This document shows, piece by piece, positions 26,305-63,893 of a DNA stretch of 64,000 bases; position 1 is the stretch's first letter, and each line of letters starts with the position of its first letter. The notes below the pieces were generated by a model that was not told the DNA's origin, searched no databases, and worked only from the letters and a program-made list of their open reading frames with translations. Source of the stretch: Globomyces pollinis-pini (taxonomy: Eukaryota; Chytridiomycota; Chytridiomycetes; Rhizophydiales; Globomycetaceae). The stretch lies in the NCBI GenBank assembly GCA_025399215.1, contig MU621145.1:17228-81227 (forward strand), given 5' to 3'. A program made the position numbers and the translations under genes.

Positions 26305-28065
26305 ATGTTTGATTTTCATGGCGTGTTAAAGAAAGTGAGAAATCTTCGTTTAAGGGCTGAAAATGCCAATTCAATTTCTTGTCCAAAGATGAAAAAGATT
26401 TGGGAAAAGTTGAAAACAAAAAGGAATGAATTAACGATAAACTTTAACGAAATCAAAAGAGATGAAATGAATTGTAAGATGATTACAGTAAGAGATCACG
26501 TATTGAAACGAGCTTTATTGATAAGTACCATGAATCAAACTCAACATCCTTGGGAAATACAAATATCATCACCAATTTCAATTTCTATTCAAAAAGGGGA
26601 TGCATTTGTGATTGAATTATGGATACGTTGTGATACGTTTGCAACAACTACAGTAACATTGGAACAAAATTATGCAAGTTATGAAAAATTGATTCATTAT
26701 ACCATTAACAATATGAATTCTATTTGGACTAAATATGAGATACCATTTATAGCTTCTTTTGGAATTGAAAAAGGTCAATCACAATTGGTATTTTTCCTTG
26801 GTTATGGTAAACAAACATTTGAATTGGGACAAGTTCGATTGATTAAACATACAAATAGTAATTCTTTACCTCCATTACGATTGGAGTATGATGGAATGCA
26901 TGAAAGATCTCCTTGGAGATTGGAAGCGGAAATCAATATTGAAAAATATCGGAAATCTAATCTATCAATAGTCATCAAAGATCAATTTGGTCAACCTATA
27001 CCAAATGTGAATATCAAGATTCGAATGAAAAAACATCAATTTCTATTTGGTACTTCAATTCGATCTAAATTGTTATTACAAGATAAACAATATCAAGATC
27101 AAGTCAAAAAATATTTCAATACAATAGTATTTGAAAATGAATTGAAATGGCATCATTGGATTCAACAACAATCAAACCAAGATGATCATTTCAGACTTGA
27201 TTGGACTAAACAGGCAATGGAATGGTGTTTAAAGGAAGAGATTGCCATTAGAGGTCATACATTAGTTTGGGGAAACTGGGATCATACACCGCATCATATT
27301 CCCCATGATCAAAGAGTGTACACTTTTTTAAAGGATTTTATTAAAGATATAGTTGGAACATTAAAAGGTCAAATTATACATTGGGATGTATTAAACGAAC
27401 TATTTCAAAATCAAGATTATATCAAATATCTGGGAAAAGAATCAATAATTGAATGGTTAAAATTAACAAAAGAATTAGATACAAAAACAAAAATATATTT
27501 GAATGATTATCCAGTACCCGATTGGGAGGTTAGTATTAAATCAGTTCAAGATACAATTGAATATATCCAAATGAATCATGGGGTACTTGATGGATTAGGA
27601 ATTCAAGGACATGTTAACGAAACTCCATGGTCCATTCCACAATATCTAGTTATGTTGAATAGATTTCATCAATACAATCTATCAATGGTATTATCTGAAT
27701 TTGATACCATAATTAAAGATCAGGAATTGGAAGCAATGTTTTTAAAAGATATGTTGATTGCTACTTTTAGTCATCCTTCCATGATTGGATTCCTAACTTG
27801 GGGGTTTTGGGATAATGCTAATTGGAGAAATCAAGGATTGTTTTTTAACCCAGATTGGACTGCAAAACCTGCATTGAAAGTTTATGATGATTTGGTGTTC
27901 AACAAATGGTGGTCAAATTGCGATGGTTATACCGACTTGAAAGGTGTTTATGATACAAGAGTATTTCAAGGTGAATTTGAAATACATGTACAAATTGCTA
28001 ATCAAACGAAAATCTACAAAGCTACTGTTGGTAAAGATGATCTTTCATTAGATATCACATTATAG
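26305..28065 (+). CDS. GH10 endo-1,4-beta-xylanase, intronless and without signal peptide
   Basis: A single 586-codon exon. The N-terminal half (about 60-190) looks like a beta-sandwich carbohydrate-binding module. The GH10 barrel follows: FENELKWHHW, IRGHTLVWGNWD, IHWDVLNELF (acid/base E365), LNDYPVPDWE, LGIQGHVNE, VLSEFD (nucleophile E465) and FLTWGFWDNANW. The C-terminal beta segment resembles that of plant, animal and bacterial GH10 enzymes rather than secreted fungal xylanases. No signal peptide follows the ATG; the N-terminus is basic. Either the true N-terminal exon is missing, or the enzyme is cytosolic or exported non-classically. Confidence 0.9.
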   Translation: MFDFHGVLKKVRNLRLRAENANSISCPKMKKIWEKLKTKRNELTINFNEIKRDEMNCKMITVRDHVLKRALLISTMNQTQHPWEIQISSPISISIQKGDAFVIELWIRCDTFATTTVTLEQNYASYEKLIHYTINNMNSIWTKYEIPFIASFGIEKGQSQLVFFLGYGKQTFELGQVRLIKHTNSNSLPPLRLEYDGMHERSPWRLEAEINIEKYRKSNLSIVIKDQFGQPIPNVNIKIRMKKHQFLFGTSIRSKLLLQDKQYQDQVKKYFNTIVFENELKWHHWIQQQSNQDDHFRLDWTKQAMEWCLKEEIAIRGHTLVWGNWDHTPHHIPHDQRVYTFLKDFIKDIVGTLKGQIIHWDVLNELFQNQDYIKYLGKESIIEWLKLTKELDTKTKIYLNDYPVPDWEVSIKSVQDTIEYIQMNHGVLDGLGIQGHVNETPWSIPQYLVMLNRFHQYNLSMVLSEFDTIIKDQELEAMFLKDMLIATFSHPSMIGFLTWGFWDNANWRNQGLFFNPDWTAKPALKVYDDLVFNKWWSNCDGYTDLKGVYDTRVFQGEFEIHVQIANQTKIYKATVGKDDLSLDITL

Positions 28066-33819: not shown

Positions 33820-34689
33820 ATGAGACCAGATAAACGAGGACCTTCAACTGTACGAGTCATGAACAGGTAAAATTTGTAAATAGTCTTTAATATCAGGTAT
33901 ATTTTTATGGGTATGTTGATTATTGCTTAGGTAAGTGTTTGAAACTACTAATTGAATTCAGGTAAATATCAATTAGAAAATCTTATTGTAGTGGTTTGGC
34001 TGTACTGGGTCGTTCAGATGGGTCTGCAAAGTTCTTGTTTGGTGATTCAGGAGTTTTATGTGGAATCAATGGACCAATGACAGTTAAATTCAAGGATGAA
34101 ATCCTAGATAGAGCAACAATCTCAGTCATCTATACCCCATGTACCGGATCTGGTGGTATGACATACTGGATTTACTTTAGGACCTTCTGATCGATTTATT
34201 GAGAGTTTTATACGTCAAACTGCTGAAGCTTTGATTCTTTCACAATTACATCCTAGAACTGCCATCAAGTTGAATTGTCAAGCATTAGCTGATGATGGGT
34301 GTATTTTAGCTGCTGCTGTCAATGCAATGGTTTTGGCTTTATTAGATGCTGGTGTTCCAATGAAATCTACTGGTGCGGCAGTGACATGTCTTATCAATAA
34401 GGATGGTGAATTATTATTAGATCCTACTGCACTAGAGTTGAAGGTATATACAATAAGCGGCTTATTTCAGGATGCTCAATCAACCCATACATTTGTATTT
34501 GATCAATCGTCTTTATCATGCATTGCCATTCATTCCACTGGACTTTTTACAGAAGAAGAGGTTTGATCAATTATTTTTTTTGATTTTCAGTTTAATGGAT
34601 GTTTTGAATTAGCCAAAGTCGCAACGAAATCTATACACAACTTTATGAAGAGTGGATTTTCAAAAAAGTTGGAAAAAGAACAATATTAA
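33820..34689 (+). CDS. RRP46: exosome core subunit Rrp46 (RNase PH-like)
   Basis: Ring subunit of the RNA exosome, nuclear and cytoplasmic. Exon 1 encodes MRPDKRGPSTVRVMN; the next coding block starts SGLAVLGRSDGSAKFLFGD, then CGINGPMTVK, GSGGPSDRFIE, LHPRTAIKLNCQALADDGCI, NAMVLALLDAGVPMKST and LDPTALELK. The RNase PH catalytic residues are not expected in Rrp46. The usual introns here are 25-30 nt, but the first is 125 nt and consists of four abutting GT-AG units (33867-33991). Stop TAA at 34687-34689. Confidence 0.9.
33867..33991 (+). other. four stacked minimal introns at one site in RRP46
   Basis: Between exon 1 (ending at 33866 in phase 2) and exon 2 (from 33992) lie four back-to-back GT...AG units: 33867-33896 (30 nt), 33897-33930 (34), 33931-33961 (31) and 33962-33991 (30). 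Each begins GTAA or GTAT and ends CAG or TAG. Removing any leading unit re-creates AG|GT for the next. Removing all four gives AG+T (Ser) and the conserved frame. A single 125-nt intron is the alternative reading. Confidence 0.7.
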
Positions 34690-46138: not shown

Positions 46139-46870
46139 ATGCAAGCTCTCTTTTACGTGACTCTTTTGGCCTATTCTGCTCAATGCGCTGTCCCCAAAGT
46201 AGGATCATTTACAACCCGTTATTGGGATTGTTGTAAACCAAGTTGTTCGTGGGAGGGGAAAGCCAAAACTGGCCAAGTGGTACGTTCCTGCAAAGCTGAC
46301 GGATTTCAAACCATCAATCCATCAAACACCAATGTTTGCATTCCTTCCAACCCAAATGGGTCTACAAGTCGTGACAGTGGTAGTTACATGTGCAACGATC
46401 AGCAACCATTCGTTGATTCCAATAATCCGAACTTGGCTTATGGATTTGCAGCTGCCAACTCTGGTTTGGTTCCTGGAGGCGAAAGAGAATCCTGCTGCTC
46501 ATGCTATAAACTACAGTTTAATGACCCAAAATTGAGTGGCAAGACGATGATTGTCCAAATCACGAATACTGGTGGTGATCTTGCTGGACAACAGTTCGAT
46601 CTGGCTCTACCTGGGGGAGGAGTTGGATATTTCCGCGGTGCTTGTAAAACCCAATGGGGAGTCCAAGACCAAAATGGGCAATCAGGCTGGGGTGATACCT
46701 ATGGAGGGGTCAAGAGTAGAAACCAATGCGAGCAATTACCCAACGAGATTCGAAGAGGGTGTTATTTCCGATTTGATTGGTTCAACAATGCAGATAATCC
46801 AGGAATTAGCTACTCGAAAGTTACTTGTCCAACCCAATTGACATCCATTACTGGCTGTACTAACAACTGA
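46139..46870 (+). CDS. GH45 endo-beta-1,4-glucanase, secreted
   Basis: Cellulase of family 45. Signal peptide MQALFYVTLLAYSAQC, then the family signature TRYWDCCKPSC with catalytic base D30, CSCYKLQF, and the acid in ITNTGGDL (D147), followed by FDLALPGGGVGYF. Twelve or more Cys predict many disulfides. A single exon of 243 codons with no carbohydrate-binding module. GC is visibly higher than in the neighbours, and the gene has a strong TATA box, as expected for an inducible secreted enzyme. GH45 genes occur in fungi and, by transfer, in plant-feeding animals and protists. Confidence 0.93.
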   Translation: MQALFYVTLLAYSAQCAVPKVGSFTTRYWDCCKPSCSWEGKAKTGQVVRSCKADGFQTINPSNTNVCIPSNPNGSTSRDSGSYMCNDQQPFVDSNNPNLAYGFAAANSGLVPGGERESCCSCYKLQFNDPKLSGKTMIVQITNTGGDLAGQQFDLALPGGGVGYFRGACKTQWGVQDQNGQSGWGDTYGGVKSRNQCEQLPNEIRRGCYFRFDWFNNADNPGISYSKVTCPTQLTSITGCTNN

Positions 46871-49071: not shown

Positions 49072-49946
49072 ATGCCTGAATATCCAGCAGATCTTTACAA
49101 ACAATACCGTCCCAGCTACCCTCAAGAATTATACAGCATCGTATATAAAGCCGTGACAGATCATTCAAGTTTTAACCTTGCTACAGATGTTGGAACGGGA
49201 ACGGGTCAAACTGCTATTGAATTAGCCAAAAAATTTAAAAATGTTGTTGGCACAGATATCAGTGCTAATATGCTGAATGAAGCTGTGGTTGCTGATAATG
49301 TATCCTATAAACTAGCAACTGCTGAGGATTTCTCAAAGCACTTTGATCCTGAATCTGTGGATTTAATAACAGTATCAACTGCAGCTCATTGGTTTAATAT
49401 GGAAAAATTCTATCAAGAAAGTTACAAAGTATTGAAGCCAAATGGTATTGTAGCAATCTGGGGATATGGCAATGTACAATTATATGGGATTTTAATATGA
49501 ATAGTTTGTTGCTCCAGATTACCCTGATATCACCAAACTTCATCAGGAATATTCAGTGGATTTTTTGGAACCATATTGGGATTCTGGGAGACATCATTTA
49601 GAGAATCTTTACCTCGACCAATCATTCACAAAAGCCCCACATTTCGAAATCGAACGTTCTATTTATCCTGACGTACCTGATGTATTGAAAATGACTAGGC
49701 AACCACTCTTGAAAAAGAAAATGTCATTGAATGATATAAAAGGATATTTGCATACGTGTAATTTTCTGTTCAATGTAATTGTTAGGGTCTGCTTATAAAA
49801 CCTTCAAAGAAAAGCGTCCAAATGATATTGATCCAGTTGACACGTTTTGTAGCCAAATGCTGTCAATCATTGGCACCAAGAGAATGGAAACTGAGATTGA
49901 TATTTACTGGCCAATCGGGATGATCATGGCCAGAAAAATTGCTTAA
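49072..49946 (+). CDS. class I SAM-dependent methyltransferase (Crg1/Tmt1-like)
   Basis: Start MPEYPADLYKQYRPSYPQEL. Motif I DVGTGTGQTAIELA, motif II VVGTDIS, then VDLITVSTAAHWFNMEKF and VLKPNGIVAIWGYG, as in Crg1/Tmt1 and related fungal proteins that methylate small carboxylates (trans-aconitate, cantharidin). After two introns (28-31 nt) the chain continues through YWDSGRHHLENLY and WSAYKTFKEKRP. About 270 aa. The natural substrate cannot be told from sequence. Confidence 0.85.
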
Positions 49947-49989
49947 CATTCAATATATTGACATTTTACATTTCTTCCTTGTTATCCAA

Positions 49990-52386
49990 ATGAAAGCATG
50001 TCGATTCCAAGAGCATTGTCAAAGAAAAAGTACTTGTCCATATCTACACTCAAGCACTACTAGTTTAAGTGAAGGTCAACCAATGCTGACCAAACCTAAC
50101 GCTGGAACCAAAAGTACTTGCAGATTTTTTAGTATGGGAAACTGTTCAAAAGGTGATGCTTGCCAATTTCTTCATATTCAAGTACCTTGCAAACTATATC
50201 TTGATGGGAATTGTCCATTTGGTTCAAAATGCCGCTACTTTCACGATGTTGGTAACAAAACGATGGACCCAATAGTCTTTCATAAAGCAGACTCTTCAAC
50301 CAATCAATTCCATGTTGTTGGCTGGACCAAAGTGACTATTGGCAATGGAATCAAAATAATCGATATCGACTTTGATCGAGACTCAATACCTGTCAGCATC
50401 AGAAATCTACCACCCAGTCTAAGTGCAGAAGATTTAATGAAGCTAATGAGCCAATTTGGACATGTAAACAATCTGTCAATTTCAAAAACTAAAACGACTA
50501 TATCTTTTGCAGACAAGGATTCTGCTCAATCGGTTTTTGACAGTCTGAACGGAACTTTAATTAACCCTGATAACCTTGAAGATTTACCATTGATAGTCAG
50601 TATAGAAAAGAAGGCCAAAAAGGATGTATTAGATTCCGCAATCAAACTTTCGTGGTATAAACCAACAGTATCAGCTCATGTAATGGTGAATGGAAATTCT
50701 CGCGATTTGGTGAATATTATTAATGGTTACAGATGTGGTGGTAGGGTTCTTTCCTGTAAAATGAAACCATCTGGAGCATTATTCATAAGTAATTTGCACG
50801 AAGGCACTACTTGGAATTCCTTAGCCATGACATTTAAATCATTGAATATACATAAACGAATTGCACATGAAAGCAAAACTAACAATATACACCCACCACC
50901 ATTTTGCTCAGAAAATGTTAAACCTGTTCTTGACAAATTTCTTTCAAGATTTGGAAACGTACTCTCATTTGACATTAAGCCATCAGATTCTAACAGCCTT
51001 CAGGATAAAGCTATTGTTATCTTTGAAAGAAACGAAGAAGCTGCTTTAGCATATGATTACTTTAAGAATCACAAGGTTTTTGAACTTGGACAAACCAAAA
51101 TATTTGCAGCAACTCTATTCACCACCAAGATGTCCATGTTGAATGCTGCATATTTATACTCCAAAACAGAAATTGAAAATTGTTCAAACCTGTTTCCTCT
51201 CGTGAATATCTCGATTACACAATCTGGTCCATCTTACCTGACCGTTTTACAAATCAAATCAAATAATGCTGAATCTTTGAATCAATGCATGGCCAGATTA
51301 ACTAGTATTACAAATGGAACCCTCATTCCACTGACTTGGAAATCATGTCTTTTAGACAAAGAATGGACAATCATTTTAAATAGAATCGGAAAAAATCTTG
51401 GATGCTTTATATATAGAGATTCAAGAAGAAAACGACTTTCTTTTTTTGGTACTATTGAACTTGAAACTGTGTTAACATCTATTCATGATGCCATGGTAGA
51501 TTACGAGAATAGAAAAAATATTGGAATAATCAAGTTAGATAGAGATCAAATTAAAAAGGTTTTAGTTTATGGAATCAAGAATTTAACCGAACTTTGTGCT
51601 GCTACTTCAATTTCTTTAGATATCATTGCTTGTAATATCAAAGTGAATGGCCCAGATACTTCAAAAATGTTTGTAAAAACTTGGATTCAACAAACTGATT
51701 CAAATAGTATGACTGATTCATTTCACACCTTAAACATCTCTAATGAATTTATTTGTAATGTCTGCTTTTGTCCATATGCTTTGACAGATGTTGTTTTGTT
51801 ACCTGAATGCATGCACGCATATTGTATTGACTGTCTTCAAAATTATTTAAAACATTGTACAACTTCTGGAGAATTCCCAATTAAATGTGTTTCAGTAAAT
51901 TGTACTTTGTTACTTAATATTACAACAATCACTAATGCTTTAGCCGATTCGGAATTTCAAGATCTGATTCGATCATCATTTGATGATTATGTAAGTCGAA
52001 ATGGTGATAAATATCAATTCTGTCCAACTCCTGATTGTCCCCAGGTTTACAAATTAGAATCCGGTCAAGTCAATTGTGATATTTGTGATTCATCTATATG
52101 TACAAGTTGTAAAACATTATCTCATCATGGAATCTCCTGCGATGAATACTCCAAAATCAAAGACGATCCTGTAGAAGAAGCTTTTGTTCGATGGAAAGCA
52201 AGTACTGATGATGTCAAAGATTGTCCCCAACCAGGATGTGGTGCTACTATTGAAAAGAATGGTGGTTGCAATCATATTACATGTCACCAATGCAAGTCGC
52301 ATATCTGTTGGGTTTGTACTACTATTTTCCCATCTGAATCAATTTATCAACATATGAGGGAAGATCATGGTGGTATAGGTATTTGA
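49990..52386 (+). CDS. CCCH zinc finger, RRM and RBR E3 ubiquitin ligase
   Basis: A single 798-codon exon beginning MKACRFQEHCQRKSTC, only 43 bp after the previous stop. N-terminus: three CCCH fingers (CRFQEHCQRKSTCPYLH, CRFFSMGNCSKGDACQFLH, CKLYLDGNCPFGSKCRYFH). Middle: RRM-like domain (SIRNLPPSLSAEDLMKLM) and further degenerate RNA-binding-like domains. C-terminus: an RBR module with RING1 CNVCFCPY...CMHAYCIDCL, IBR CPTPDCPQVY...CDICDSSICTSC, and RING2 CPQPGCGATIEKNGGCNHIT, whose GGC cysteine is the presumed catalytic residue, then HMREDHGG. This architecture suggests RNA-guided ubiquitination, seen in some fungi and plant DEAH-RBR proteins. No intron. Confidence 0.88.
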   Translation: MKACRFQEHCQRKSTCPYLHSSTTSLSEGQPMLTKPNAGTKSTCRFFSMGNCSKGDACQFLHIQVPCKLYLDGNCPFGSKCRYFHDVGNKTMDPIVFHKADSSTNQFHVVGWTKVTIGNGIKIIDIDFDRDSIPVSIRNLPPSLSAEDLMKLMSQFGHVNNLSISKTKTTISFADKDSAQSVFDSLNGTLINPDNLEDLPLIVSIEKKAKKDVLDSAIKLSWYKPTVSAHVMVNGNSRDLVNIINGYRCGGRVLSCKMKPSGALFISNLHEGTTWNSLAMTFKSLNIHKRIAHESKTNNIHPPPFCSENVKPVLDKFLSRFGNVLSFDIKPSDSNSLQDKAIVIFERNEEAALAYDYFKNHKVFELGQTKIFAATLFTTKMSMLNAAYLYSKTEIENCSNLFPLVNISITQSGPSYLTVLQIKSNNAESLNQCMARLTSITNGTLIPLTWKSCLLDKEWTIILNRIGKNLGCFIYRDSRRKRLSFFGTIELETVLTSIHDAMVDYENRKNIGIIKLDRDQIKKVLVYGIKNLTELCAATSISLDIIACNIKVNGPDTSKMFVKTWIQQTDSNSMTDSFHTLNISNEFICNVCFCPYALTDVVLLPECMHAYCIDCLQNYLKHCTTSGEFPIKCVSVNCTLLLNITTITNALADSEFQDLIRSSFDDYVSRNGDKYQFCPTPDCPQVYKLESGQVNCDICDSSICTSCKTLSHHGISCDEYSKIKDDPVEEAFVRWKASTDDVKDCPQPGCGATIEKNGGCNHITCHQCKSHICWVCTTIFPSESIYQHMREDHGGIGI

Positions 52387-59407: not shown

Positions 59408-61920
59408 ATGAATAATATACCAGAAGAAACTCAACTACCTGCAAAACGTACCAGAGATGAATTAGAAAATCAAATGGGAAAACCCAAAGATATCCAAACT
59501 GGTGTCGCTCCTATCTCAGATATTACTGAAGACACTACTAGATCTCACTCAAAAAAACTTCGAACTTTAAAGGTATTTCTGCAGTTGTCTCGTTAATGAC
59601 TTCAGGTAATACCACCCAAAGAACCAAACAAGATCGAACAAGAACCCTTCACGCTGACTTTAAATGGTTCTTCAACTCAAACTACTGCTCCAACAAAGAG
59701 TTTGACAGCTCAAGTGTCTGAAACCACTTCAGTCCCTAACCAGACTCATCCAATTCCACCAGTCAAATTATCAAAACCTGAAAGTACCAAGGACCATAAG
59801 TTGTTGGACTCAACTGTGAAGCTTGAGCACACTGGCGCGAATACGACTGAACCAATAAAGAAACTGGATGATTCCACACCAAGAGCCATTCCAAAAATCA
59901 TATTTTCAACAGCAAAAACGTCAGATAATAACCAATCTGGAAAGAATCAGGGTAAATCCAGTCCGATAAAGATTGTTAAAGTTGAAAATCAACCAACTTT
60001 ACCTAAAGCAGAGAGAGTACCAGGAGAGCTACATCAAAACAGTAACATCAAATTAAACACAGTTGATTCAAATGCCAAAAACGCCAGTCCAGTCACAGTG
60101 CCTATTTCGCCAACTAAAAGCAACAGTTCACTCAATGTACCAATAGTACCGAAATTAATAACTCAAAAAAACAACTCATCGTCTCTACAAGTGGTAAGTT
60201 AAGTTGGATTCATAAGATAGCCAACCATATCCATAACCCCTTCATCTCCTATTGTCAGCACTAGTCCCGAAAAACCAACAACTACCATTGATGTTATTGA
60301 CAAACTGGCCAAAAATCAGGAAAAAAAAGACCACATAGAAACTAATGCGAGTACGGTGGATAATGATGTAAAGATGGAGGAGACTCCAACCGTTCCAGAA
60401 AACACAGCTACAAACGTTGTTCCTGAAACTGCCAAAAAAACAGAAGATAACATTGTCGCAAACAAAATTGAAGTGTTCCTTTCAAAAATGAACTTAGATA
60501 TTAAAAAAAGCGAGATGTTGGCGCTTATTGAAGAAGCAAAATTAAAGCAGCGTAAAGTTGTGGTTCTAACCAGATAGAAAACAAACAAGGAAGAGAGAGT
60601 ATTATTGTCAATGATTCAAGATTAAACAAAACTGACCATCCGAATTGGGATACATTTTTAGGTTTGATTGATAACAGTAACTAATTGTTTCAGGTAATAT
60701 ATTTCGATTAATTGAAATAGGGCATGTCATTTATACTGGAGCGAAAAGTCGAACCGCACATTCAAACCGTGCTGTAGATTTAGAGTTGTTTCTCTGCCCT
60801 CGATTTACTGAGAAAGATCATTATGCTACGATTGACATTCGGATTCCCGCAGAGTTTTTGACCTATCGAGGGAATATTGCTGTTCGTAAATCGGCAGTAT
60901 GGGGTACAGATGTCTATACAGATGACTCAGACGTGGTTGCAAGTGAGGACTTTGAAAAACTAATGAGTAGTGATCATCCACTCTGGGCATTATCGCCCTG
61001 TGGATGCCCCAGATCCAGTCTTGGAAAATCCAGATTCTGGAAGTTTGAAGCAAGCATCATTATTGAAAGATGTTGATAATGTACACAATAGAACTACATC
61101 ATTAGTTACTAACGTATCGCCGATTTGCTCTAAAGTAAACCCTGTTATTGCACAAGTCGATCAACGGAACTCTTCATCTACAGTGCTCCTTCCTGATCAT
61201 GATCTCAATGTCACTTTGCGAATATTGCCCAAATTAGTAAAATATACTGGCTCAACTCGATATGGTCTGGATTCCAAGTATTGATAAATTTGATTAACAT
61301 TGGAATAGAGGTTGGGGGTCATCTCATGACGGAGAGAGTGTACGAATTGAGAAAGTCACGATGCTTGATAGTGGATCTGTTTATCGCCTGGGACGTAAAT
61401 CAACTTCTAAAAAGTGGGGCAATCTAACTTTATCAAAAGGAAACTCTCAAACACGAACTTTCACGTTTACAAAGGATGGAATTGCATGGTATGTATCTAT
61501 CAATTAATTATTATAGTACTCATTATACACCCGAAACTATGAATAATTGGCCTACTTATCTAACAAACAGCACCTCTACAAATGGTGAACGCAATTATAC
61601 GATTGAAGATTTTTCATTGGAAGAATTACAAGCCATGAAACATTTGCCATATTGGAGAGTAAGATTGCAAAAATATAAATGCTATTTGGAATATAGCAAT
61701 GAAAAAAGGTAATGAATCATGACAGTCAATTCATGGTAGTTTGTTTTTGGAACTAACTGATGGCATGGTGAAAATAATAGATAAATTAAATGGTTCTATC
61801 CTCCATTCAGGTTTGAAACCAGATGAATTGGGTTGGAATAACGATGGTTTATTGTTGAGTGAGACACCATTATTGGAGAGTCAATTAAAACTTATCTCGT
61901 GGCATAAATGTACTAAATAA
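59408..61920 (+). CDS. RXT3: Rxt3-family subunit of the Rpd3L histone deacetylase complex
   Basis: Fungal transcriptional co-repressor subunit. Start MNNIPEETQLPAKRTRDE (a bipartite basic cluster near KRTR and KKLR suggests nuclear import). A long Ser/Thr/Pro/Lys-rich disordered half contains several SP/TP sites. The Rxt3 domain reads IDIRIPAEFLTYRGN, SAVWGTDVYTDDSDVVA (joined by a 28-nt intron to MIIHSGHYRPVDAP), LNVTLRILPKLVKYTGSTRY, then RGWGSSHDGESVRIEKV. The C-terminus reads FSLEELQAMKHLPYW. Ends HKCTK. About eight introns. Confidence 0.87.
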
Positions 61921-62015
61921 ACTTCCTTTTACTGTTATTTAGTTATTTATTTGTGATTTATGTTGAGTCTGAAATTGTTACAGAACGCGTTTTAGACTTC
62001 AATAATTTCCCCATT

Positions 62016-63665
62016 ATGGAATTGATTGATTCGGGAAAGATACAACAAATTGCAGAATATGCAGAAAAACATGAACTATTTGATTTATTTCAAGAATTAC
62101 TTTCAAAATTGATTATAGCAAGGTTTAAAAATGAAACCTAAACAGTAGACCTGCTGATCCATATCAATTCATGATTGACTATTTCGCGAAACCTCCAGGT
62201 CTCTCTATCATTTTAATGGTACCTCCTACTTCTGGGTTGACTGAAACAGTAACCTCATTGTTAATTGACCATTTTAGATTGAGCGTTTGGCAAGACAATT
62301 CGATGTAGTTCATATCAATACTGGAAAATTACTCAATCAAGCATATGAAAAACAAAAATCAAATGGAGTCCAAGCAAAACCTTATATTGACCGTGGAATG
62401 TTGGTACCGGATTCGATAATGGTTTCTGTCATCTTGCAACAATTAAAGGAACCCGAAGTACTTGAGAGAGGATATATTTTAGGTATTTAATGTTCAAGAG
62501 AAGCTAATGTCAGATGGTTATCCGCGTACTAAACAACAAGCATTAGCATTGTTACAAGCTGGTTATATTCCATCACATGTCGGTATTGTAACCATGTATT
62601 AAAGATAGTGGAAATTGATATTCCTGATTCAGGACTTGTCGGAGCAAAAGGAACTAATGTTAAACAAAACCGTTTCAGTAGAAACGATAATGATACTAAT
62701 GAACTGACACTGAAAGAATCAAACATAAAACTTTATCGCCAACATATTGGACAAATAAAATCTTGTTACACATCCACATATACACGATTCAGCTTCCCTG
62801 ATGGTGTGGTAGGCGAAGAAGAAACATTATCGCGAAAGATTGCTTCTTGTATTGATATGAAGCCAATCACAAGTGCTCCAAGAGGGTTTAGGATTATTGT
62901 TGCTGGATTACCCGGTTCTGGAAAAACAAAAGTAGCGGAAATGATATCAGAAAAATATGGACCTGTGTTGAGTAAGTCTGAAGTCATTAACCAATTCAGT
63001 ATCTGCAAAGAAAGTTATGTTACAAGCTATCTCATCTGGTGAAGGGGAGCGATTCTTGCCTTATCTCAATAATCCTGATCAAGGTAAAATGTAATTTTAG
63101 TATAATTCGTATAGTTCCCTTAGAAATTATTGGAATTGACCTTGTTAAACGTTTACGAAAGCCTGATTGTGTGCAAAGGGGCTGGGTTTTGGATGGATTT
63201 CCATTCAATTCAAAGCAAGCAGAATTCCTGCAATTGAGTGGTATAAACCCAAACAGGTATCCTTAGTATTTTTCTCATTTTTAAAGAGTCATTTGGTTGA
63301 ATACTCCTTATGATACATGCTACACTCGAATCGCTCGTCGAAGATATGATCCAATATCATCTAGAATTGTAAACTTGGATAAAGTTCCCAAAGATCTCAA
63401 AAATGTGGATTTAAATACTTGGCTCAGAGCAAGAGCAGACACAGAGGAAATTTTTCAAGGAAGGTTCGATAACTATGAAACTGCAGAACGTGAATTAAAG
63501 AAATTTTATGGCTTGAGAGATTCCGCTAACCCACTTGGTGTTATGCATAGTGTCCAGTCTGATGGTGTTGGTGAAGAAGATGAAAATGGTGAGCAACCTA
63601 CTTTGAAGGCAGTATTTGACGTAATTGATGGGCACTTGCTCAGACCAGTTCCCAACTCTACTTAA
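62016..63665 (+). CDS. AK8: AK8-like adenylate kinase with two kinase domains (axonemal type)
   Basis: In animals AK8 sits in cilia and flagella. The N-terminal helical stretch (MELIDSGKIQQIAEYAEKHE) is followed by LLSKLIIARPADPYQFMIDYF as in AK8. Domain 1 has a degenerate P-loop (PPTSGLTETI, Lys replaced) and then VVHINTGKLL and RGMLVPDSIMVSVILQQL. Domain 2 has an intact P-loop (VAGLPGSGKTKVAEMI), CVQRGWVLDGFPFNSKQAEF and RRYDPISSRIVN. Introns of about 27-32 nt. The start at 62016 is the first ATG in the frame; an upstream exon cannot be excluded. About 480 aa, as in AK8. Confidence 0.75.
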
Positions 63666-63893
63666 TAAACTGTTTATGCTTGCTTGAACGAGAATAATCT
63701 TTCAATACAGACTGACTATTGTAACACCTATTGAACCAAACATATTGATAAGTTTTCAGGTCGATGCGTCCAAGTCCTGAGAATACAAGTTTCCAAAAAG
63801 TAAAAGAGTTACAATTAATGAACCAATTCATTCACATCCATGGTGATGATCGATTATTAAGAGTGAGTACAGCAAAAGGAATGCCAAAAGGTA
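63666..63893 (+). other. downstream flank with an uncertain short frame
   Basis: From ATG 63764 a frame reads MRPSPENTSFQKVKELQLMN and onward, then runs antisense into the tRNA-Gly gene. It is too short to call. It may be the first exon of a gene whose remainder lies beyond the window. Confidence 0.3.

Follow-up and report, generated by a model that had tools for sequence, protein, structure and literature searches.

The RRP46 gene of the rhizophydialean chytrid Globomyces pollinis-pini, a small aquatic fungus, carries behind its first exon a 125-nucleotide (nt) insert. Judging by its sequence, this insert is probably a stack of four minimal spliceosomal introns, each complete, which share a single exon-exon boundary and have zero-nucleotide exons between them. 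The gene lies in a 64,000-nt stretch of DNA, here called the window (positions 17228-81227 of contig C56, GenBank MU621145.1), from an 18.5-Mb assembly of 459 contigs (GCA_025399215.1); positions given without a contig label are those of the window. Similar arrays of abutting GT...AG units recur across the genome, and we think it likely that introns here multiply in place by tandem duplication, diverge and would leave the transcript unit by unit, in a miniature form of zero-nucleotide recursive splicing.

The RRP46 array

The RRP46 insert (33867-33991) tiles without remainder into units of 30, 34, 31 and 30 nt with three internal AG|GTA junctions, which is the exact split into four abutting units that a sequence-only reading of this DNA had reported. 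All four units start with GTA and end in CAG or TAG, and their splice-site matrix scores, ranked as percentiles against those of 622 single introns, fall between the 47th and the 83rd. The gene and its parts are:

33820-34689, + strand: RRP46 gene (gene model and spliced reading)
33820-33866, + strand: exon 1, ATG at 33820, ending ...AAC AG in phase 2 (homologue alignment)
33867-33896, + strand: array unit 1, 30 nt, GTAAAA..CAG, branch-like TTAAT by eye, splice-site score at the 49th percentile
33897-33930, + strand: array unit 2, 34 nt, GTATAT..TAG, branch-like TTGAT by eye, 47th percentile
33931-33961, + strand: array unit 3, 31 nt, GTAAGT..CAG, branch-like CTAAT by eye, 78th percentile
33962-33991, + strand: array unit 4, 30 nt, GTAAAT..TAG, no YTRAY motif found by eye near the 3' end, 83rd percentile
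33992-34155, + strand: exon 2, starting T GGT TTG (GLAVLGRSDGSAKF)
34156-34180, + strand: ordinary single intron, 25 nt (gene model; the joined protein aligns with homologues)
34444-34470, + strand: ordinary single intron, 27 nt (gene model and homologue alignment)
34561-34590, + strand: ordinary single intron, 30 nt, donor GTTTGA (gene model and homologue alignment)

Removal of all 125 nt gives the protein junction MRPDKRGPSTVRVMNS^GLAVLGRSDGSAKF, which aligns without gaps with Exosome component 5 of Terramyces and Rhizophlyctis and is identical in the deposited G. pollinis-pini protein P0001. Any unit left in would bring an early stop codon: all 15 products of partial retention reach a stop at codon 17 or 27. 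The homologues, the deposited protein and the retention products thus agree with the earlier claim that the exons join in frame only when the whole insert is removed. Further downstream, P0001 stops at the 34561-34590 intron (..EEEV) and is without the C-terminal part found in Terramyces and Rhizophlyctis. When the 125-mer is shuffled with its dinucleotides kept, exact tiling turns up in 0.44% of the shuffles for units of 20-45 nt and in 0.02% for units of 25-36 nt; these figures are post hoc and concern a single picked locus, and the actual evidence against chance comes from the genome-wide tests.

To describe ordinary introns, we used a self-trained gene model (a codon-pair coding model, donor and acceptor matrices and a length distribution) whose 251 kb of training sequence were C1:1-100000, C2:1-70000 and the whole of C56. 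The commonest lengths among its 679 predicted introns are 28 nt (95 introns), 29 nt (92) and 30 nt (82), so the RRP46 insert is indeed about four times the usual length, as had been noticed. Most predicted introns (619) are 23-37 nt long, and many of the 48 above 45 nt look by eye like gene-merge artefacts. The same model broke the RRP46 array into false micro-exons.

Arrays across the genome

Three AGGTA words at the spacing of two successive introns (21-37 nt) occur 317 times in the genome, counting both strands, compared with 51 times at a spacing of 45-61 nt and 14 times at 95-111 nt, where two of the matches come from a single array. In 38 of the 51 double-spacing matches, an internal AGGT cuts the first gap into two intron-sized units, and these matches are arrays counted with one unit skipped; the other 13 have no such internal word. 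Some of the 317 matches are themselves coding-like repeats or chance. The sequence-only reading had named frequent chance occurrence of internal AG|GT units as what would refute it, and for arrays of three or more units this refutation fails genome-wide.

The gene model points the same way. When abutting units (spacer 0) are allowed, it yields six chains among 676 introns, with 4, 4, 3, 2, 2 and 2 units, while control runs that force a spacer (1-10, 12 or 15 nt; twelve runs) yield 0-2 chains each, eight in total and all of two units. Exact tiling is seen in 9 of the 31 predicted introns of 46-170 nt, a set that includes gene-merge artefacts, versus 1.18 expected from shuffles. An isolated two-unit case carries little weight, since 4-23% of shuffled introns of about 60 nt split into two units by chance. 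Chains were parsed with a stricter prior (-4) and with a looser one (-2, with a larger maximum number of units), and the counts from the two are kept separate.

Among the 317 intron-spacing matches, the 100 that we analysed contain 170 distinct units in 70 arrays. Extrapolation from these puts the probable genome total at about two hundred arrays having at least three AG|GT junctions, and two-unit arrays would come on top. Arrays span 2-10 units and 54-285 nt; the largest one read has 10 units in 285 nt (L048; C12:42085-42369), and arrays of 6, 5 and 4 units are found at L039, L021, L029, L022, L026 and L044 under the looser prior. Behind 30 loci stand 20 distinct arrays, of which 16 parse as arrays, one parses weakly (C12:40684) and three do not parse: C8:154784 under both priors, and C2:114782 and C5:67931 under the stricter prior, the only one applied to them. 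Phase 1 prevails (16 of 21 arrays), but we do not use this as an argument, as the pattern used to pick most of these arrays itself favours a preceding AG.

Two loci stand out among the matches. At C451:3493-3714 (match coordinates), on a late-numbered contig, nine successive AGGTA words delimit eight units of 23-29 nt with recurring ..TCTGACACAAAG ends. At C2:114782-114855 (minus strand; L024/L025), a perfect 23-bp minisatellite fits the AGGTA pattern and remains unparsed as introns; it is probably coding or intergenic.

At the motif level, the units look like U2-type introns, with a GT donor, an AG acceptor and a branch motif as in single introns. The lengths of the 170 units peak at 28-30 nt, and the base before the terminal AG is T in 104, A in 38, C in 23 and G in 5. 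Of the 170 units, 82 (48%) carry YTRAY with the A placed 6-13 nt before the 3' end, as do 336 of the 622 single introns (54%), as against 14% of shuffled units.

Several arrays interrupt conserved genes. The 10-unit array lies in a PhyH-family gene (a PHYHD1 homologue) at the site LIFK^QPDIGGEV, where human PHYHD1 aligns with the joined protein and shows no insert; the Boothiomyces, Kappamyces and Batrachochytrium homologues have no insert there either. Our model of this gene lacks, elsewhere, 10 residues that the deposited model P0008 and the homologues carry. Three-unit arrays sit within the P-loop of a SEY1 homologue (GSQSTGK^S) and in an ARP1 homologue (TTLTK^GFGD), both at sites where homologues have no insert. 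A 6-unit array in MCM8 is crossed gap-free by the Kappamyces homologue, with two others differing by one residue nearby, and a 5-unit array lies inside a protein kinase domain.

The window itself holds two further candidate arrays, both within one common gene model (59408-63687):

60662-60720, + strand: second array, 2 units of 32 + 27 nt, GTTTGA..CAG|GTAATA..TAG (chain model)
59573-59632, + strand: possible third array, 2 units of 33 + 27 nt, weaker, found with the looser chain prior only

Elsewhere in the window, genes for glycosyl hydrolases of family 10 (26305-28065) and family 45 (46139-46870; both Pfam) have long unbroken frames in this intron-rich genome, and one frame at 49939-52386 combines CCCH zinc fingers with RRM and RING/IBR domains (Pfam).

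Proposed duplication and removal of units

Adjacent units resemble each other more than randomly paired units do (Mann-Whitney p = 1.9e-8, with the caveat that the pairs of any one array are non-independent). Of 100 adjacent pairs, 17 score above the 99th percentile of the random ones. The PHYHD1 array includes two identical adjacent 28-mers whose neighbours are partly similar, and a genome-wide search allowing 3 mismatches found this 28-mer at no other place. Neighbouring units range from identical to unrelated, a gradation that fits tandem duplication with later divergence. In addition, the exon ends in AG before seven of nine arrays, versus 184 of 622 single introns (p = 0.004); the nine arrays, RRP46 among them, were chosen regardless of exon context. 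The AG excess is compatible with slippage of the matching AG(GT) ends, or with selection favouring a donor context that still works once a unit has been removed.

We propose the following sequence of events. A whole GT..AG unit would duplicate in tandem. The junction so formed is necessarily AG|GT and could act as a 3' splice site as well as a 5' one; this step is partly shown by the similar neighbours. The geometry suggests that such a duplication is nearly neutral, because any order of removal, including a single jump from the first GT to the last AG, yields one and the same messenger RNA (mRNA). With the mRNA unaltered, arrays could grow almost freely. Units would then diverge past recognition while keeping their AG|GT ends, often the branch motif, and a length near 29 nt, a pattern that the arrays display. 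A spliceosome whose usual introns are 23-37 nt long would remove units singly, each removal setting the next GT right after the last bases of the exon and so regenerating a donor. On balance, we also favour the fuller account in which minimal introns duplicate into arrays of 2-10 copies, selection by a spliceosome suited to about 29 nt keeps the units functional, and stepwise recursive splicing removes the arrays.

The sequence-only reading had offered multiplication in place, by tandem duplication or by repeated insertion, as one account of the RRP46 array. As a process in this genome it is supported by arrays of 2-10 units with identical or similar neighbours; the RRP46 units, which are mutually dissimilar, give it no such support. 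We infer duplication at RRP46 only from the genome-wide pattern, as similarity among its four units stays at the level of random pairs.

Several observations weigh against duplication and stepwise removal. Reversed-letter controls are high at every spacing, with 138 matches (63 + 75) at intron spacing, 126 (73 + 53) at 45-61 nt, 98 (45 + 53) at 95-111 nt, and 195 (90 + 105) for a pattern of a single unit followed by a double-length one, of which 169 were found. The word ATGGA is presumed to be common in coding sequence, which probably accounts for this, and we judged chance by the spacing controls, with the reversed-letter controls set aside as inflated. Three of the 17 high-similarity pairs are repeats without the look of introns (two at C2:114782-114855 and one at C28:58754), and similarities among the RRP46 units, at 0.24-0.39, are those of random pairs. 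The full parses of the PHYHD1 (10 units), MCM8 (6), kinase (5) and SEY1 arrays need the looser prior; under the stricter one, the PHYHD1 array is split, MCM8 has 5 units, the kinase has 3 and SEY1 has none. For PHYHD1, SEY1 and MCM8 we prefer the longer parses because the homologue alignments decide for them.

Deposited gene models and longer introns add to these contrary points. At the three array sites where deposited Globomyces models were compared (RRP46, PHYHD1 and MCM8), two of the three models seem to keep array sequence as protein. In P0008, units 4 and 8 of the PHYHD1 array are coding, giving 19 residues absent from three chytrid homologues. The MCM8 model P0128, from Globomyces sp. 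JEL0801, reads EGLVIVLIIL where unit 1 in frame gives EGLAIVLIIL, and so reads through an apparent unit 1; this suggests that JEL0801 shares unit 1 of the MCM8 array. Because the homologues are without these residues, they are taken here, short of proof, as errors of the gene models. Undivided introns are seen as well: one of 84 nt in the SEY1 homologue, at KYHK^GIPADGF, where the joined protein is gap-free, and one of 74 nt in a C56 gene that looks WD40-like by eye (TGSRD^GTVKIWD). Under the looser prior, 21 non-chain introns of 46-140 nt remain, some of them artefacts. Finally, among the matches to the single-then-double pattern in C1-C67, an intact internal AGGTA is present in 29 of 51 rows and absent from 22. 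By rough estimate, these 22 include one coding-like minisatellite, about 9 chance matches and about 5 with a donor other than GTA, so a few decayed junctions may remain.

The two undivided introns exceed the usual length two- to threefold, do not tile at AG|GT and are possibly decayed arrays. On their account we rejected a strict spliceosomal length limit, with nothing above about 45 nt spliced, which we had considered.

It is unlikely, in our estimate, that the 125 nt of RRP46 leave in one step as a single intron, with the internal AG|GT sites as idle relics of a minisatellite or a recent duplication. Such excision would give the same final mRNA as stepwise removal, the 74- and 84-nt introns seem to be of this kind, and some arrays do hold similar neighbouring units. 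Most neighbours, however, are no more alike than random pairs and yet have AG|GT ends, intron-like length and the branch motif at nearly the frequency of single introns. RRP46 units 2-4 are without another copy in the genome, so recent copying is by itself an unlikely reason for their intactness. Unused internal sites should decay and leave double-length units behind. At double spacing, 13 of the 51 rows lack an internal AGGT, which is within the far-spacing background of 14, so that no class of decayed double-length units can be seen there. The scarcity of decayed rows, together with intron-like signals in mutually dissimilar units, leads us to favour use of the internal sites.

Repeated insertion was the second route to multiplication in place suggested by the sequence-only reading. 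In this account, unrelated introns, or an introner-like element, would have entered one AG|GT proto-splice site one after another, by reverse splicing or transposition. It would suit the lack of relatedness among the RRP46 units and the AG-ending exons before arrays, but slippage between matching AG(GT) ends also fits the latter, and insertion does not predict neighbours that are more alike than random pairs. A dispersed source family is also missing where we looked for it. RRP46 units 2, 3 and 4 (unit 1 was not in the search) have no other genomic copy at up to 3 mismatches, nor has the PHYHD1 unit searched, and pairwise comparison of the 622 single introns (143,478 pairs) reveals no family of alike introns, with a best similarity of 0.79. 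Insertion from a dispersed family is not supported by the result for these RRP46 units, and we consider repeated insertion in general quite improbable.

That the arrays are chance, that is, ordinary long introns or micro-exon runs in AT-rich DNA with convenient AG|GT words, is hardly credible: two-unit splits of about 60 nt and part of the 317 matches may be of this kind, but for arrays of three or more units the spacer, spacing and tiling tests strongly disfavour it, as do the 10-, 6- and 5-unit arrays in conserved genes.

If tandem duplication with stepwise removal is correct, G. pollinis-pini would have a genome-wide, splicing-neutral mode of gaining intron sequence, and its arrays would display in nature the successive stages between units that are identical and units that have fully diverged. 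This touches on two open questions, namely how new intron sequence originates and how very small introns work mechanically. The roughly two hundred probable arrays would serve as a natural test of intron duplication, of the use of internal AG|GT sites, of the order of removal and of the shortest recursive segment. As a practical matter, standard gene models can misread array sites.

Comparison with known systems

Among the titles and abstracts listed by our search of the open-access literature, we recognised nothing on stacked minimal introns or on Globomyces introns, which is weak evidence of absence. The systems below are compared as far as the cited descriptions go. The nearest in splicing logic may be recursive splicing in Drosophila and vertebrates, where zero-nucleotide exons (ratchet points) consist of juxtaposed 3' and 5' splice sites around AG/GT (PMC6110457). 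Like ratchet points, the AG|GT junctions inside the RRP46 insert and among the 170 units would allow piecewise removal to one mRNA. In contrast, the known class occurs in very long introns, while here the segments are about 29 nt, the arrays are 54-285 nt and the units resemble multiplied introns. In human lariat data, conventional lariats are preferred below 1,000 nt (PMC10156609). The arrays may work like recursive splicing and yet fall outside its described long-intron class.

Stwintrons of fungi likewise are complex intervening sequences built from more than one intron and removed by consecutive reactions; an example from Lipomyces starkeyi is described as leaving in one step or two (PMC7138796, PMC8469720). 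Stwintrons are nested, with the internal intron removed first, whereas the Globomyces units abut, none is nested, up to 10 occur together and any order of removal should work. Tandem dual-specific AGGT sites, usable as 5' or 3' splice sites at a fixed interval, are reported for human UBC (PMC10809524). As described there, the UBC monomers are coding, the intervals are 228 nt and a variable number of monomers is retained; the Globomyces units are non-coding and all must go.

In fungi and algae, introns can also multiply through introners, or introner-like elements (PMC8469720). They place similar copies at many sites, unlike the Globomyces units searched, which have no dispersed copies, so multiplication here looks local. 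We applied this criterion genome-wide to three of the four RRP46 units and one PHYHD1 unit, and pairwise to the 622 single introns; with no dispersed copies of those four units and no alike introns among the singles, we rejected an introner family as the source.

For the DNA step, intron gain is known from DNA duplication that supplies new splice sites (PMC4974935), and in the Cryptococcus gene CNN00420 a repeat expansion made new introns identical to other introns of that gene (PMC2395259). Abutting introns do not figure in the descriptions of these cases that we compared, whereas in G. pollinis-pini the copies are piled up at a single site without intervening exons, which leaves the protein unchanged. 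Within that comparison, the Cryptococcus repeat expansion is the nearest precedent we found for the duplication step.
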